This document shows, one piece after another, positions 17,236-24,439 of a DNA stretch of 64,000 nucleotides. The notes below the pieces were generated by a model that searched no databases, had not been told where the DNA came from, and saw only the letters and a program-made list of their open reading frames with translations. Position 1 is the first letter of the stretch. The number at the start of each line of letters is the position of its first letter. The position numbers and the translations under genes were made by a program. This stretch comes from a virus. Location of the stretch: positions 1 through 64,000 of IMG/VR virus record IMGVR_UViG_3300034071_000286; one strand, written 5' to 3'.

Positions 17236-18093
17236 TCACTTCTTCTTTTTACCACCAAGTTTACCCGGATCAGCCGTTGCCGAAGCACCGATTGAAGCCA
17301 AGTCAGCAAGAGAACCGCCAAAAATATAGGTTCCAACATGCTGTAACTTCATCCAAGGACAGAACCACGTACGTAGTCCGATCTCTTGAGCCTTCTGACA
17401 GAACCAATAATCCTCAGAAAGATAACGCTTTGACTTTGGATCTACTTCTGCCTGGAAGAACATTAGAATTTCACGAGTGCCGTCAAAATGCTCTGTACGA
17501 ACATGATCTGGCTTATAAGAATACTGATCCTTATAGGAATCGTAGAACTTCTGCATGGCCTTCTTGGTGACCATCATAAAGCCCGTTCCGATTTCTAATA
17601 CTTCTACCGGATCACTTAGAGGAATACTAGTCTGATCTCCCTTCGGATTAAACACGTAATCACCAACGAACTTCTCAAGAACGTTTGGATCTTCATCGGC
17701 AACGCCCTTATCTACTGCGTGCTTAATCTTCTCCCAAGAGATACACTTCTTAGGATATGGACCACCAATGATATCATACTTCTCTTCCTCATTAGCCTGT
17801 AGTGCCATAAGAGCAATAACGTCTTGAGGATTGAAGCCGATATCAGAATCGATAAACATCATATGCTGAGCGTCGGAACGCATAAATTCATCGCAGCAAT
17901 AATTACGTGCACGTGTAATTAGAGACTCGTTGAATAGATAATAAAACTGAAGTGGAATACCATACTGCGTACAAATAGCAGATAGGTCAGCGCATGACTT
18001 AGCAAACATACCTGCACAAACACCACCATACATAGGAGTGGCTACGAATAGCTTCCTATCTCTCAACTTTTCAACTGGGATCTTAATTTCCAT
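17236..18093 (-). CDS. GT2/GT-A-type glycosyltransferase
   Basis: The 285-residue protein starts with a nucleotide-sugar-binding strand (KLFVATPMYGGVCAGM), has NESLITRARNYCCDEF and the metal-binding FIDSDIGFNPQDV motif (DxD), and a later EIGTGFMMVTKKAM and SEDYWFCQKAQEIG block of the type found in GT-A folds. Related proteins are common in cyanophages. In this position, at the head of the modification region, it may glycosylate modified bases, but LPS or protein targets are equally possible. The tail is lysine-rich. Confidence 0.75.
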   Translation of the reverse strand: MEIKIPVEKLRDRKLFVATPMYGGVCAGMFAKSCADLSAICTQYGIPLQFYYLFNESLITRARNYCCDEFMRSDAQHMMFIDSDIGFNPQDVIALMALQANEEEKYDIIGGPYPKKCISWEKIKHAVDKGVADEDPNVLEKFVGDYVFNPKGDQTSIPLSDPVEVLEIGTGFMMVTKKAMQKFYDSYKDQYSYKPDHVRTEHFDGTREILMFFQAEVDPKSKRYLSEDYWFCQKAQEIGLRTWFCPWMKLQHVGTYIFGGSLADLASIGASATADPGKLGGKKKK

Positions 18094-18293: not shown

Positions 18294-18739
18294 TTATTAC
18301 CTTTATAATGATCGTTATAAAGCATCATTAACGTATAATGAAGAACCTTCATAAGGTCATCCTTATTACTGCCCTTCTTCTTGCCGTAACGCCAAAGATA
18401 CTTAATAGCTGTGTTTCGGAAAGTTGGTAAAGAATCACCAAGAGCCAACCAAACATCGAAACATTCTATATTCTGCTCTTCAGTCATATAGTGCTGCCCA
18501 TACGTCTTATCTATATAGGCATGGAAGTCAGCAATAATCTGGTCTTCCTTATATTTATATTTAGGTGGCCATGTTGATGCAGTAAAATGAGCGCCGCTTT
18601 CGTTAACTCTAATTCTCTCTTCTCCACCTACTGACCAAGTGTGACCGTTTTCAAACTTATACTCTTCAGCAGAGCTAACAGAACCTGTTGGTGATGATGC
18701 GAATGGATACATGGTATCTATATTAGGTTTTAGTGTCAT
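18290..18739 (-). CDS. DUF3310-like (SaV-type) protein
   Basis: The 149-residue protein ends in the DUF3310-type pattern FRNTAIKYLWRYGKKKGSNK followed by DDLMKVLHYTLMML, an all-helical segment seen in many phages and often annotated as nucleotide-kinase-like without proof. The N-terminal half (EEYKFENGHTWSVGGEERIR) is unusual. It shares a base with the kinase gene, so the two are coupled. Confidence 0.6.
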   Translation of the reverse strand: MTLKPNIDTMYPFASSPTGSVSSAEEYKFENGHTWSVGGEERIRVNESGAHFTASTWPPKYKYKEDQIIADFHAYIDKTYGQHYMTEEQNIECFDVWLALGDSLPTFRNTAIKYLWRYGKKKGSNKDDLMKVLHYTLMMLYNDHYKGNK

Positions 18740-19275
18740 TATGCCTCCAAAGTCTTCATAATATGATCAACAATAACTTTCTGATCTTCTTTGTTATTGT
18801 TTTTAAACTTAACCGTATTAAACATCAAAACCATATTGGAAAGGATATTAGCAATCTTAGTTTGACGACCCTGTAACCAAGTTTCGTTCTGATCGCTGCC
18901 TCTTTCCTTATATCTTTCTTCTCTGATAGTTTTATCAGTCTCTAGATAGATGATTTCTGTATCATACTTCTCTACGCAATGCTCTAGAAAAGAGGCAGTG
19001 AAGAGCCGGTCACCTTCAAAAAGGACAATAGAATTGTCAGGAAGGGAGGCTAGAAACTTCACTGCCTCTGGTTGAACCGCCATAGACATACGATCTGTGC
19101 CAGAGAAGACTTGACCTTCTTCATACTTGCCAAGAATATATACAAATCCTGATTGATGATATGGAACTAACTTTACTTGATCAAACATAGAAGAAAAAAC
19201 ATTCTTTCTAAGTATTTCTTTCATTAGAGTGGACTTACCAGAACCTGGCTCACCACCGATAGCAAAGATTTTCAT
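18739..19275 (-). CDS. P-loop kinase, candidate 5-hydroxymethylpyrimidine DNA kinase
   Basis: The 178-residue kinase has Walker A GEPGSGKST (8-16), an SGTDRMSM segment (58-65) likely in the substrate site, a second acidic motif FEGDRLF (86-92) and a lid with REERYKERGSDQNETWLQGR. This layout resembles the P-loop kinases proposed, and in phage ViI/M6-type systems shown, to phosphorylate 5-hydroxymethyl-uracil in DNA. The immediate neighbours (aGPT-Pplase-like, PLP, TET/JBP) fit that role. A plain dNMP kinase is the main alternative. Confidence 0.7.
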   Translation of the reverse strand: MKIFAIGGEPGSGKSTLMKEILRKNVFSSMFDQVKLVPYHQSGFVYILGKYEEGQVFSGTDRMSMAVQPEAVKFLASLPDNSIVLFEGDRLFTASFLEHCVEKYDTEIIYLETDKTIREERYKERGSDQNETWLQGRQTKIANILSNMVLMFNTVKFKNNNKEDQKVIVDHIMKTLEA

Positions 19276-20444
19276 CCAAAGAACCTTTCAAGGGTATTCT
19301 TAGTGTTATCGTTAAAGTCGTTCTTAAAGCAATCCCACTCTTCATCCATCATAATAACTTGACCTGTATTTAGGTAATGATTTTGCTTCTCTTTACATAA
19401 ACCCGGATCAGCAGGATTGTCTTCTAATCTAAGATGTTCTGGTAAAGAATCTCTACGCATCTTCCAGAAATGTTGAAACTTATCTCCCCACTCTTCCTCT
19501 GCGTATTTGATTCTATTATACATCATATCCATATAGACGTTTGGATAACGACGATTAGGACGATGCCAAGACTTATAACAACAGAAGGTTGATTCCATCG
19601 TGAAGAAACTAACGTCTGGATGCTTAATCCGTTCTTTAGCTTCCAACAGAAGAGTATCACCTTCTTTAACTAACCATTCAATGGTTTCTTTTTTATAGCC
19701 CTCAAAACCTTTATTCTGAGAAGCCTCTGCATCCCACCAATCTAAATCATCACGACCTAATACTTTACACAGACCGTTACGATGAGACTTTGATCCGCTG
19801 ATATCGTCCAAGAAAAGACTATTACAGTCTATATTAATTCCTTGGATTCGTAAATACTCAAGATATGAAAAAGTTGATAATCTTCCAAAAGATAGAAAAT
19901 TATTTCTTACATGATCCCATACCTTACCAAAATTATAGAATTGGTTGTCATTAGTAGTTAGACAACCAAACATATTCTCTTGGGTTCCGTATTTGTCTAC
20001 GTTATCTTTATACGATTTTACGCAAGAAGGGAATCCTGTTTTTCCAACTTTACAGTATTTTCTATCTGAATCCCACCCACTGCCTGCTTTAAATTTGGGA
20101 TGAACTGTATCCCACCAGTCAGATAATTCATCAACGTTGACATCTTTAAACTTGGGGAATCTCTCGTAGATCATAGAAGATGTAACAATATTCTGAGAGC
20201 ATCCGTTAATGAACGCTATCCACAACTTATCTTCCATGTCCATCCCATAGTATTTCGTTAACCATGGAAAAGCAAAGTATACACCACCGGGATGGCTTCT
20301 ATGTTTAAGATGAAACTCATAAAATCTTAGAAAGACTTCACGGCGATACCGTGGCTCACGAAAGTCCATACCATATTGAAGATCTTTTATTTCTGGTTGG
20401 TTAGTTAATTCAGACCATCTACCTAGCTGCTGCTCACTCTGCAT
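19272..20444 (-). CDS. aGPT-Pplase / HMU-kinase-helical superfamily protein (amino acid or amine:DNA transferase candidate)
   Basis: The 390-residue, mostly helical protein has FYEFHLKHRSHPGGVYF (41-57), FINGCSQNIVTSSM, GRLSTFSYLEYL (187-198) and SKSHRNGL (218-225). I recognise these as marks of the alpha-glutamyl/putrescinyl thymine pyrophosphorylase (aGPT-Pplase) group and the related helical domain of HMU-DNA kinases. Members displace pyrophosphate from activated hmU in DNA with an amino acid or amine. It lies between the kinase (4-base overlap) and the PLP enzyme (11-base overlap). The family call is by motif memory, not alignment. Confidence 0.65.
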   Translation of the reverse strand: MQSEQQLGRWSELTNQPEIKDLQYGMDFREPRYRREVFLRFYEFHLKHRSHPGGVYFAFPWLTKYYGMDMEDKLWIAFINGCSQNIVTSSMIYERFPKFKDVNVDELSDWWDTVHPKFKAGSGWDSDRKYCKVGKTGFPSCVKSYKDNVDKYGTQENMFGCLTTNDNQFYNFGKVWDHVRNNFLSFGRLSTFSYLEYLRIQGINIDCNSLFLDDISGSKSHRNGLCKVLGRDDLDWWDAEASQNKGFEGYKKETIEWLVKEGDTLLLEAKERIKHPDVSFFTMESTFCCYKSWHRPNRRYPNVYMDMMYNRIKYAEEEWGDKFQHFWKMRRDSLPEHLRLEDNPADPGLCKEKQNHYLNTGQVIMMDEEWDCFKNDFNDNTKNTLERFFG

Positions 20445-21558
20445 AGGTAAATTCCTTAATATGAGTTGGGAACTCTCCCAATCTACCTCTTAGCATATCA
20501 TACATCTTTTCTTTACGTGGCTTACTACCAACAATCCATACCATCGTATTCTCACCAAGAATATTAGGCATACGCTCATTAACGTAAGTCATCATCTTGC
20601 CTTCATAGGTAGGATGAAATTCGATTCCACCGTAACTATAAGGCATTTCTTCTTGGTAGTCAACATAATTAGTTGTATGAAGATCATAATGATGCAGATT
20701 AAAATTATAATCTGATGTATTATCTGTAAAGAAAGAAGTTAGACCCGACTCATACTGTTGCTGTTTGTTAGGAGTATCATGATAGATTCTAGTAAACGGC
20801 TTAGTATAAACACCAGATACGTTCTCAATAATATCCAAACGCTCTTCAATGAAGTCTATCTTGTTTGGTCCAATCCCAATAAGATATACGTCTCTGAGAT
20901 TCTTAGGGCGAAATCTAGCAAGACCGTAAAGAATAGAAGTGCAGCTATTACAAGAACCAGCTGGTATAACCAAAGTGGTAATATGTTCTGGTATGTTTTT
21001 AATTTGCTCAGATCCAACATAGTGAAATCTCTCTACTCTTTCTGGTGAGTTTACTTTGTGATCTACTGTGATACCATATTCCAGATAAAAGTAATCCTTA
21101 ACTCTTTCATCCTTAGAAAGAATATCTTGAACTCTTCTCTGTAATACTGGATTATAAGCTATATGCTTATTGATGTAGAACTCGGCACCAAACCAAGTAG
21201 CTGTATTAACATTCTCATGCTTATGAGCTATATCAGCTTTGGTTGAACCGATAACGTGAATACTCTTAAGACCGAAGTGTTCTGCTACTGCAGATCCCAT
21301 AGGTAGCTGTGGTGACTTTACGCTCGTACCAGATATAACACCAATAGGATTCTTAGCAGTCTTAACGTATTGTTCAGTTAACCAAATACACTGGCGTAAC
21401 TTTGAACCGTTAATACCACCATAACCTAAAGGAGCAAACTTATCTTCACGTTTGAAGAATATACCATTTACTTCTTCAACAGGAGTGAGATCGAAAAGAT
21501 AATCTTCCCATTTAATCTCATTCCTGTCTATTGATAACGTATCGAATATTGTATTCAT
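20434..21558 (-). CDS. Fold-type II PLP-dependent enzyme (ACC deaminase/tryptophan synthase beta-like)
   Basis: The 374-residue protein has IFFKREDKFAPLGYGGINGS followed by KLRQ, with Lys53 in the position that binds PLP in ACC deaminase and D-cysteine desulfhydrase, an SGTSVKSPQLPMGSA region, and the phosphate-cup-like PAGSCNSCTS (199-208). Known hypermodifying phages carry PLP enzymes that act on an amino acid already attached to a thymine base. Its overlaps with the aGPT-Pplase-like gene and the dioxygenase gene suggest the same role here. Free amino-acid metabolism is the alternative. Confidence 0.72.
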   Translation of the reverse strand: MNTIFDTLSIDRNEIKWEDYLFDLTPVEEVNGIFFKREDKFAPLGYGGINGSKLRQCIWLTEQYVKTAKNPIGVISGTSVKSPQLPMGSAVAEHFGLKSIHVIGSTKADIAHKHENVNTATWFGAEFYINKHIAYNPVLQRRVQDILSKDERVKDYFYLEYGITVDHKVNSPERVERFHYVGSEQIKNIPEHITTLVIPAGSCNSCTSILYGLARFRPKNLRDVYLIGIGPNKIDFIEERLDIIENVSGVYTKPFTRIYHDTPNKQQQYESGLTSFFTDNTSDYNFNLHHYDLHTTNYVDYQEEMPYSYGGIEFHPTYEGKMMTYVNERMPNILGENTMVWIVGSKPRKEKMYDMLRGRLGEFPTHIKEFTYAE

Positions 21559-22922
21559 TAAGCGAAGCTTTCAAACCCTTTGAAGCCTACGTTAACTACG
21601 CCGTCTTCATCAACAGCATTATGCTTATCTAAGAAATCTCTCCACTCAGTTGACTTCCACATATCTGGAGAGATACCATTCCATAAACGATGCCAACTAG
21701 GATGATTCTGATTATTCTTGCGTTCCTCGACAAACTGCCTACGTAGATTTTCATACTTATAGGACTTAAGCTTTAGCATGTTCTCTCGGAAGTAACACAC
21801 AACCGAAATACGTTCTGCCTTTGGATGGTCAAGAACAATAGGTGTATTGCCGTGAAGAACCTCGTGATTATTAACCAGAAGTAGATCACCGGGACGAACA
21901 TTAACTGCTATCCGATACTCTGGAAATACTAGATAACCACCAGTATACTCTCCACTTCCTAGAACAAGAAGATTACTAAGACCGTCTTGGTAATCACCAG
22001 CATCGTAATGAGCGGCTGTTCTAAAGGTCTTGTTAACTGTAATCGTAGTGAATACAGTATCTGGAACTAAGAACTTTGAATCAATCTTATCAGCTACTGA
22101 TCTCTGATTAGACCAACGCCAAGGTAATAGTTCCTTGAAACCTTTATTCAAAGACTGTAGGAAAGGATATGCCCTTTCGAATAGTTCTGGGTGATGCTCG
22201 GTATAAGCAGTAGGTCTTCCATAAGGAATACGAGGATAACGATCATACCAACCGGCAACACCAGAGAATACTGGCTTAGCATAATTAGTAGTTGAGATCC
22301 ATTCCTTAGAAACACGTAGTGCTTCCGTTCTCTTTTCTTCCAGAGAATAGTTATCTAAACCATCAGCCCATCTATCGAACCAATTTTCGGTATCTGGATA
22401 ATGTTTAGAAATCTCACTTGGAAGCCAAACGCTACCTCTAGTCTCTTCATTATGCTTAAGAGTAGCATAACGCTCTCTGATAGACTTGACGTTTACTTCA
22501 CCTTCGCCAATGAATGAGTTAAGACTAGATCCACCTTCGATGAAATAACTCAATACCGCTGTCTGGTAAGGAGTTACCCATTCTCTAGAATCATCGCCTT
22601 CTAATCCACGAGGACCAGCAGCTAGACCTCTATTAAAGCTCTGAGTTGCTGCACCATGAAGACCGATATAGGCTTCGTCGCACTCTTCCTTGGTGAAGTA
22701 GTTCTTACGAAACTTGAAAGCGATTCTTTTCTCATCAGATCCTGCTTCGCAAGATTCGCAATCTTTCATACCACAGTTAGCTTTAGTGAGCATATCACAA
22801 AGCGGTGGCATATAACAGTCAGTATCTTCTTCTACTAAAACGTCAAAATGACTTTCGTCTACAAATTGACCTTCTAGTTTAGAACAATCTAATCTGTCTC
22901 TAGCAACAATCACATTGACCAT
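21558..22922 (-). CDS. TET/JBP-type 2OG-Fe(II) dioxygenase
   Basis: The start at 22922 (AGGGAT upstream, directly after the previous stop) gives 454 residues. The catalytic half reads TTITVNKTFRTAAHYDAGDY with iron ligands His305 and Asp307, then NLLVLGSGEYTGGYLVFPEY, VRPGDLLLVNNHEVLHGNTP with His357, and the 2OG-binding Arg371 in ERISVV. The FRTAxHxDxGD and HGNTP pattern is typical of the TET/JBP family, which oxidises 5-methylcytosine or thymine in DNA. The N-terminal region has five Cys (about residues 36-58) that might bind metal. No cytosine methyltransferase is visible in the window, which favours thymine as substrate. Confidence 0.82.
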   Translation of the reverse strand: MVNVIVARDRLDCSKLEGQFVDESHFDVLVEEDTDCYMPPLCDMLTKANCGMKDCESCEAGSDEKRIAFKFRKNYFTKEECDEAYIGLHGAATQSFNRGLAAGPRGLEGDDSREWVTPYQTAVLSYFIEGGSSLNSFIGEGEVNVKSIRERYATLKHNEETRGSVWLPSEISKHYPDTENWFDRWADGLDNYSLEEKRTEALRVSKEWISTTNYAKPVFSGVAGWYDRYPRIPYGRPTAYTEHHPELFERAYPFLQSLNKGFKELLPWRWSNQRSVADKIDSKFLVPDTVFTTITVNKTFRTAAHYDAGDYQDGLSNLLVLGSGEYTGGYLVFPEYRIAVNVRPGDLLLVNNHEVLHGNTPIVLDHPKAERISVVCYFRENMLKLKSYKYENLRRQFVEERKNNQNHPSWHRLWNGISPDMWKSTEWRDFLDKHNAVDEDGVVNVGFKGFESFA

Positions 22923-22924
22923 TA

Positions 22925-23299
22925 TTAAATCCCTAAGATGCTTTTGATATCTGGAGCAGTCCAACCTTCTGGTTTTAAAATCTTACCATCTTCACGGCGA
23001 ACTGGCTTACCATCAACTAACTTATCCATATTAGAACGATGGACTTCAGCGAATACTTCGTTTAACGGAATGCCATAAGAAGCAGCAGTCCCACAAACGA
23101 TGTATATAATATCTGCCAACTCTTTTGCAATATTTTCAAGATCGTGATTTTGTTCGCCTTGTAAGTATTCATCAAACTCTTCTTCCAATAATCTCATACG
23201 TAGAATACGTTCTTTATCATCAGGAAACTCTGGCTTAGTGCCTACGTGCTGACCAACTGCGGTCTGAAATTCTTTTACGGAATTAAACATATCTACCAT
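22925..23299 (-). CDS. MazG/PRA-PH-like NTP pyrophosphohydrolase
   Basis: GAGG eight bases upstream selects the start at 23299 (124 residues). The all-alpha core has RLLEEEFDEYLQGEQNHDLE with the EExxE metal-binding helix, KELADIIYIVCGTAASYGIP with the second acidic helix, and a C-terminal SNMDKLVDGKPVRREDGKIL. This matches phage MazG-like nucleotide pyrophosphatases, which may clear non-canonical dNTPs or reshape nucleotide pools. It directly precedes the TET/JBP gene. Confidence 0.82.
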   Translation of the reverse strand: MVDMFNSVKEFQTAVGQHVGTKPEFPDDKERILRMRLLEEEFDEYLQGEQNHDLENIAKELADIIYIVCGTAASYGIPLNEVFAEVHRSNMDKLVDGKPVRREDGKILKPEGWTAPDIKSILGI

Positions 23300-23309
23300 T
23301 ATATATACC

Positions 23310-23891
23310 TCACACAAAGTCGAAATTGATAATACAGCGGTGTCTATCTCTTGGTTGGCTAGAGCAATGGTATCTAGCACCATCAAATATAACCACTCTA
23401 CCCTTTTTAGGGGTAACTCTTTTATGTTCTACTGTGGGAACATTCTGAGAACTAGGCAACGTATTATACCTAGTTTGCTCGTAAAGTATAGTGTCTCCGT
23501 CAGAATCATTCACATAATATACGCAAGCATAATGATCTTGTGGAAGATCTAAATGTATACCATTATGTGGTTTGATAAACTTATCAGCTAACGGGAGTTG
23601 TAGAAAAGATCTATTGAAATGAATATCTTCAAATTCAATAAGTTTCTTTTCCAGAATAGCATTAGCTATCGGAACTGATATTTTCTCATACAGTGGAGAC
23701 GTAACCCCAAAGCTAGGGTGTTTGAACATCATATTAAAACCATACGAAGGAAAAGCTTCGTTGTTAGAATATGACATATCTCTGATGAATCTCCAATTAG
23801 GATAATTCATCAGAGTATTTTCAAATTCGTCTTGTAACTCTACGGGGATAATATCATCATAAACTATAGTTTCTTTTAACTCTGAAACCAA
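23310..23891 (-). CDS. 2OG-Fe(II) oxygenase (prolyl-hydroxylase-like)
   Basis: The 193-residue jelly-roll protein has His113-x-Asp115 (GIHLD), a YVNDSDGDTILY strand, His175 (ARYHCSS) and the 2OG-binding Arg185 (RHRCIINFDF). T4-like marine phages often carry this kind of oxygenase without assigned substrate. Its neighbours make base, amino-acid or protein hydroxylation all possible. It ends 10 bases before the MazG-like gene and overlaps its upstream neighbour by 16. Confidence 0.82.
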   Translation of the reverse strand: MVSELKETIVYDDIIPVELQDEFENTLMNYPNWRFIRDMSYSNNEAFPSYGFNMMFKHPSFGVTSPLYEKISVPIANAILEKKLIEFEDIHFNRSFLQLPLADKFIKPHNGIHLDLPQDHYACVYYVNDSDGDTILYEQTRYNTLPSSQNVPTVEHKRVTPKKGRVVIFDGARYHCSSQPRDRHRCIINFDFV

Positions 23892-24439
23892 GGGGGAACC
23901 TCACGTTTTTTCCATTTATGTAGATGTGCCTTACCCTTTATATAATAGTTTCGATAATTGTCAACTGGATTATCGGAAATAATATATTCTTCTGCCATAC
24001 AAGAAGGCATAGGTGTCATATCCCAATCTTTAAGATTCTTGGGAGGTGATTGTAGCATATAGCTAAGATCACCAGAACACTTATGCTTCTTTTCGTAACG
24101 GTAAGTGTATTCGTCCATTAAGGCGAATAGATGATCGACTAGCCAATTATAATTCTCGACGCTTGTGCGAGTCCATATAGCAGACGGATGATTAATGTGC
24201 GTAGCTGAGTATATAAGTTCTTCACGAGAGTCATCGAGTAACCACCATTTCTTTTTCTTAGTTTTAAGTGTACCATCCTCCTGAAGTATATCAACTTCTA
24301 GTAGGATTTCGTTTCCATCCATCAAACGATGTGCTGTAGATAGAAGCTGAGCAGATTCTAAGATCATCTTAACTACGTGACGATCTACCATCCACTGAGC
24401 AGCTTGAACAGGGTCTTCGCTTAGATAGAAGATATTCAT
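23876..24439 (-). CDS. Conserved T4-like phage protein of unknown function
   Basis: The 187-residue protein starts MNIFYLSEDPVQAAQWMVD followed by RHVVKMILESAQLLSTAHR. This opening is conserved in a family common in cyanophages and pelagiphages. The rest includes HPSAIWTRTSVENYNWLVDH and a YRNYYIKGKAHLHKW tail. Conserved His, Asp and Lys residues suggest an enzyme, but the activity is not established; a DNA-glycosylase-like label is sometimes attached to such proteins, which I cannot confirm. Confidence 0.7.
   Translation of the reverse strand: MNIFYLSEDPVQAAQWMVDRHVVKMILESAQLLSTAHRLMDGNEILLEVDILQEDGTLKTKKKKWWLLDDSREELIYSATHINHPSAIWTRTSVENYNWLVDHLFALMDEYTYRYEKKHKCSGDLSYMLQSPPKNLKDWDMTPMPSCMAEEYIISDNPVDNYRNYYIKGKAHLHKWKKREVPPWFQS

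Follow-up and report, generated by a model that had tools for sequence, protein, structure and literature searches.

To our knowledge, the thymidine hypermodifications that have been proven chemically all begin from 5-hydroxymethyl-2'-deoxyuridine (hmdU) made as a free nucleotide, and the steps in phages ViI and M6 are reportedly also described in pathway papers from 2018 and 2022. Iyer et al. are said to have predicted in 2013 that hydroxymethyl bases made by TET/JBP dioxygenases are the starts of complex modifications, and the Pfam family TAGT ('TET-associated glycosyltransferase', PF20691) is named for its association with TET. Phage TET enzymes that act on 5-methylcytosine (5mC) have already been published. 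For the Rhodococcus phage Tonitrus (2025), the annotation lists a TET-like protein, an aGPT-Pplase2 and a 5-hmU kinase (PMC11955845).

Here, we analyse a 64,000-nucleotide stretch (the window) of a 97.8-kb virus contig and argue that a four-gene cluster within it quite likely makes a hypermodified thymine after replication, through the successive action of a TET/JBP dioxygenase, a kinase, an amino-acid:DNA transferase (ADDT) and a pyridoxal-phosphate (PLP) enzyme, although no chemistry is available.

A four-gene cluster in a T4-like phage

The cluster comprises the following genes.

21558..22922, minus strand: TET/JBP dioxygenase, 454 aa from the ATG (PF12851, PHROG_24024, intact ligands)
20434..21558, minus strand: fold-type II PLP enzyme, 374 aa (PHROG_3650, homology to Vi01 orf226, fold, K53)
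19272..20444, minus strand: ADDT, 390 aa (PF18724, model matching gp46/PUGT)
18739..19275, minus strand: P-loop kinase, 178 aa (PF18751, co-occurrence with ADDT)

All four open reading frames are intact, and adjacent genes overlap by a few bases or abut. Read along the minus strand, a MazG-like gene (22925-23386) precedes the TET, PLP, ADDT and kinase genes, and a DUF3310-type gene follows them; the small overlaps among the four resemble one transcription unit. The same group was found together again in dozens of contigs and the run is therefore not due to chance, which bears out the overlapping hypermodification cluster described in the initial annotation.

Over the 9000 bases that were compared, the window does not differ from a 168.6-kb contig (G001), which encodes core replication genes; the window phage is T4-like and belongs to a probable methane-oxidiser lineage. 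G001 also carries an AmoC/PmoC gene on its minus strand (PF04896, E=2e-107; L107:11453-12214, G001 ~31.5-32.2 kb), from which we infer that the host of the lineage oxidises methane or ammonia and is probably a methanotroph. Freshwater phages of methanotrophs are known to carry pmoC (PMC7674155), and G001 does likewise.

Three neighbouring proteins were recorded in passing. Just upstream of the cluster, 23310-23891 encodes another protein resembling 2OG-Fe(II) oxygenases (PF13640, slightly under the cut-off), which is present in only some TET relatives and whose family, PHROG_274, bears the name 'DNA endonuclease V'. A conserved 187-aa protein at 23876-24439 has a weak pyrimidine-dimer glycosylase match (PF03013, E=0.016) and might be relevant if hmdU must be kept or removed. 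Adjoining the sliding clamp, 17236-18093 encodes a distant glycosyltransferase-like protein (PHROG_1574) that is kept in nearly all T4-like relatives and also in Caulobacter phage Cr30.

Families of the four proteins

The initial annotation had named a TET/JBP dioxygenase, a fold-type II PLP enzyme and a P-loop kinase, and our searches agree on all three. In a profile search the dioxygenase matches PF12851 with E=6.8e-25 (87.6 bits against a curated cut-off of 34.9), and it matches PHROG_24024 with E=2e-142. Its iron triad (H305xD307...H357) and 2-oxoglutarate residue (R371) are all intact and conserved across relatives. These residues are counted from the ATG at 22922; the open reading frame listing places the start at a TTG at 22964, but we prefer the ATG, which fits the PHROG match: this starts only at residue 15 of the TTG-initiated protein. 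Specificity for T or C could not be read from the base-contact residue three positions after the HxD aspartate, because this position varies among relatives; in the window it is D, as in Naegleria Tet1. We propose that the enzyme is a thymine hydroxylase acting on DNA, an activity that is inferred, as there is no chemistry for any member of this TET clade. The TET/JBP homologues of DLP6, Cr30 and S-CBWM1 (L001, L002, L007) are mislabelled 'SNF2 DNA repair protein' in their records.

The 390-aa protein had been described as an aGPT-Pplase or HMU-kinase-helical-type protein, a label that came near without being exact. Its score against aGPT-Pplase clade 3 falls just under the cut-off (23.6 against 25 bits) and a profile search found no HMU-kinase helical domain in it, while the Pfam family 'Amino acid:DNA transferase' (PF18724) matches with E=5e-22 (79 bits against a cut-off of 26.2). 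Modelled with AlphaFold2 from 14 related sequences (pLDDT 88.7), the protein has a single real match family in the PDB by fold search, 8z2n/8z2m, a Pseudomonas phage enzyme known as 5-phosphomethyl-2'-deoxyuridine glycinyltransferase or gp46/PUGT (E=0.009, probability 1.00, modest TM-scores of 0.45/0.58); the next different protein has a probability of 0.02. PUGT emerged only from the fold search, since the ADDT profile found no relevant match among PDB sequences. The profile score and fold match together rule out both earlier assignments, and they predict that the protein is an amino-acid:DNA transferase, 27% identical to the Vi01 ADDT. We propose that it moves an amino acid onto 5-phosphomethyl-dU, with both the substrate and the amino acid being inferred. 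At two other loci (L072:1758-2798 and L073) a gene beside ADDT clusters with ADDT, in L072 without a Pfam ADDT match, and is possibly a diverged duplicate.

The PLP protein matches PHROG_3650 with E=1e-122, and its model folds as a fold-type II D-cysteine desulfhydrase/ACC deaminase (E ~1e-9 by fold search; E=4e-4 for the profile against ACC deaminase). The NGSK lysine (K53) is invariant and the GSCNS phosphate loop largely conserved. Over 378 columns the protein is 47% identical to orf226 of Vi01, whose DNA contains 5-(2-aminoethoxy)methyl-dU, or 5-NeOmdU (PMC11721090). The proposed reaction, trimming of the amino-acid adduct by decarboxylation, is inferred.

The kinase matches PF18751 (E=1.2e-12 by profile search), contains the P-loop GEPGSGKS, and belongs to the same family as gp4 of Mycobacterium phage Bane1, which adjoins the Bane1 ADDT and TET. 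A search against the PDB found nothing. The 5-hmdU kinases of Vi01 belong to PF18748 and PF18747 (HMUDK/HMUD2), of which the window kinase is not a member and to which it has only a weak profile link. Because the families differ, its proposed role as a 5-hydroxymethyl-dU DNA kinase is inferred from context. Public records and PHROGs give hypermodification kinases the name 'terminase small subunit', examples being Bane1 gp4 (L006:2884-3483), Vi01 orf67 (L112:1704-2366) and PHROG_800, where profiles show PF18751 or PF18748.

These assignments bear on whether the cluster modifies the phage genome at all or targets host DNA, RNA or a small molecule. Nothing direct favours the latter beyond the versatility of 2-oxoglutarate oxygenases and PLP enzymes, whereas ADDT and TET are DNA-modification families and the DNA of phage DLP6, with a related TET (48% identical to that of the window), is restriction-resistant (PMC8228603); we regard such a target as highly improbable. 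As DLP6 lacks ADDT, its resistance, which we count as a phenotype in favour of the proposed pathway, bears on TET only, and in the literature on DLP6 we found no enzyme-by-enzyme restriction result that separates T from C.

Source of the hydroxymethyl group and cassettes behind TET

PF00303 covers thymidylate synthase, dUMP-hydroxymethylase and dCMP-hydroxymethylase. No PF00303 protein was found in G000, in the relatives of 168.6 kb (G001), 162 kb (G002) and 147 kb (G003) or in other partial relatives, nor in the complete Bane1 genome. Among 14 TET-bearing contigs and genomes only Cr30 has one, a canonical thymidylate synthase (373 bits) alongside its TET and ADDT. ThyX occurs in 9 of the 14 (G001 and eight others), including the 168.6-, 162- and 147-kb relatives. 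Apart from Cr30, the ADDT-bearing genomes divide: TET is missing from Vi01, Vibrio D509 and Erwinia Bue1, which encode a divergent PF00303 protein (49-56 bits), whereas G001-G004 and Bane1 encode TET without a PF00303 protein. At L064 and L065, PLP (43%) and ADDT (37%) proteins resembling those of the window occur without TET, whose place is taken by an HMUDK kinase, an HMUDK helical domain and a thymidylate-synthase-like gene, indicating that the same downstream enzymes follow either hydroxymethyl source. A weak BLAST match had suggested that L064 combines TET with a thymidylate-synthase-like gene; the protein concerned is actually an HMUDK helical domain.

The cluster might still be ViI-like, with hmdU entering as a nucleotide through a hydroxymethylase encoded off the known contigs or an unusual ThyX, and TET serving another step. 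The contigs of the relatives are linear and showed no terminal repeats, so that a small part of these genomes may be missing and completeness is unproven, and the ThyX that is present has not been assayed for its reaction. We nevertheless find this very unlikely given the lack of PF00303 in the three large relatives and in complete Bane1, and given that TET stays constant whether an ADDT or a glycosyltransferase cassette follows it. The gene content, the protein families, the intactness of the catalytic motifs, co-inheritance and the lack of another hydroxymethyl source in the near-complete relatives are all observed.

TET could also act on 5mC, with the cluster decorating 5-hydroxymethylcytosine with an amino acid. 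In principle TET accepts either 5-methylpyrimidine, there are the published phage enzymes with this activity, and in phage Melnitz an HhaI-type methyltransferase adjoins a distant TET. Against this, no C5-methyltransferase (PF00145) was detected in any of the 14 contigs and phage genomes carrying the window's TET, with Melnitz as the positive control, and ADDT and PLP are homologous to thymidine-pathway enzymes. We therefore set 5mC aside as the main substrate and judge this alternative unlikely. The initial annotation had left the substrate as T or 5mC; these two observations, the presence of ThyX, the restriction of PF00303 to Cr30 and the division of ADDT phages between TET and PF00303 narrow it to thymine as the likely substrate, still without chemistry, and 5mC from a host enzyme is not excluded.

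Viral contigs were scanned with TET, PLP and ADDT and all genes were clustered. Across about 30 distinct relatives TET is retained and the genes downstream of it change. In the T4-like relatives TET is fixed between MazG-side genes and sliding-clamp genes, and the genes behind it vary among the following cassettes.

TET-associated glycosyltransferase (PF20691) alone, in sister loci such as L012
PLP, ADDT and kinase, the window type
c27 (a 250-aa gene with a weak rRNA-dimethylase match), ADDT and kinase
glutamine amidotransferase, acetyltransferase, ADDT and kinase
N6/N4-methyltransferase-like gene, ADDT and kinase
inositol-phosphate synthase with ADDT and kinase
group-1 glycosyltransferase

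PF20691 is absent beside the window TET, which is followed by the PLP, ADDT and kinase genes. All distinct TET-ADDT loci with a readable cassette have the kinase (26/26), while sugar-type loci have neither kinase (0/6) nor ADDT (0/6); L075 is among the loci counted. Among cultured phages Cr30 is an exception, as the region flanking its ADDT holds no PF18751 kinase (a local, not genome-wide, result), and a kinase without ADDT occurs in one cassette type. For loci found by TET alone, ADDT/kinase co-occurrence gives a Fisher's p of 9e-5, which is only indicative because the loci are related. The ADDT tree follows the cassette (10 label changes against a minimum of 8; 0/200 shuffles as low) whereas no such agreement is seen for the TET tree (21 changes, shuffled mean 22.3; 42/200 shuffles as low). 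Moreover, closely related TETs serve a glycosyltransferase in L012 and an ADDT cassette in L027 and L029, which fits a common hydroxymethyl product.

Several loci stand out individually. In L040 and L041 the kinase is alone behind TET; their DNA might bear phosphomethyl-dU itself, or ADDT might lie elsewhere. A myo-inositol-1-phosphate synthase-like gene adjoins a divergent ADDT and TET in L018 (2734-3861) and L048, suggesting an inositol-phosphate cap. In phage C48C1 (L005:11356-13388) TET precedes an unknown gene and then one resembling UDP-galactopyranose mutase, which suggests a furanose sugar cap.

We lean somewhat towards a broader reading, which the evidence does not exclude, in which TET is a hub: a JBP-like enzyme would hydroxylate phage thymine and at least six interchangeable cassettes would set the cap. 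The caps would be glycosyl, ViI-type aminoalkyl, an amidotransferase/acetyltransferase product, methyltransferase-like or inositol-phosphate-linked.

Proposed pathway and comparison with known systems

For the window's cluster we favour modification of thymine in finished DNA. Ordinary dTMP would be made by ThyX and the phage DNA replicated with T, after which TET/JBP would hydroxylate some thymines to 5-hydroxymethyl-dU. The kinase would convert this to 5-phosphomethyl-dU, ADDT would replace the phosphate with an amino acid (the precedents being serine or glycine), and trimming of the adduct by the PLP enzyme, probably a decarboxylation, would yield something like the 5-(2-aminoethoxy)methyl-dU of ViI. 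Protection from host nucleases is the likely role. The kinase, ADDT and PLP steps are modelled on the published ViI and M6 pathways (PMC6449724, PMC11721090); the first step, all substrates, the order of steps, the amino acid, the product and the role are inferred.

The initial annotation had placed hydroxymethylation by TET in finished DNA and called it a different entry route. Entry through TET is supported by agreeing profile, structure and genome-content evidence, chemistry being absent, but its novelty is smaller than claimed, as a published prediction of this route came earlier. As far as we have checked, what looks new is the coupling of a ViI-type PLP/ADDT module to TET as hydroxymethyl source, the swapping of cassettes, the mutual exclusion of TET with divergent PF00303 genes, and the argument for thymine.

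If hmdU is made by TET within DNA, the modification need not be complete, can select its sites and need not depend on the nucleotide pool, in which it would resemble base J; cultured phages would then allow a direct test of thymine oxidation by a phage TET/JBP enzyme. The exchangeable cassettes hint at several unsought DNA bases and at enzymes for DNA labelling. Were TET indeed a hub, bacterial viruses would own a base-J-like entry route and an undescribed set of DNA bases.

Among known systems, the ViI type (Ackermannviridae) is alike in its PLP enzyme (47%), ADDT (27%) and P-loop kinase. It differs in its hydroxymethyl source, a thymidylate-synthase homologue rather than TET, and in its kinases, PF18748/PF18747 rather than PF18751. 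With the M6/PaMx11 type the window shares the gp46/PUGT fold, in its ADDT model, and differs by having a PLP enzyme and TET entry. The same three-enzyme core recurs in Bane1, whose gp2-gp4 match PF12851 (below the cut-off), PF18724 and PF18751 in a row, and in Tonitrus as TET, aGPT-Pplase and kinase; in contrast to both, the window adds a ViI-type PLP enzyme and its phage is T4-like. Phage 5mC systems have a TET-family enzyme in common with the window and, unlike it, a C5-methyltransferase. Base J of trypanosomatids (JBP1/2 and a glucosyltransferase) begins with TET/JBP thymine hydroxylation, as proposed for the window; its cap is glucose and that of the window an amino acid, whereas the window's sister loci carry the PF20691 glycosyltransferase.
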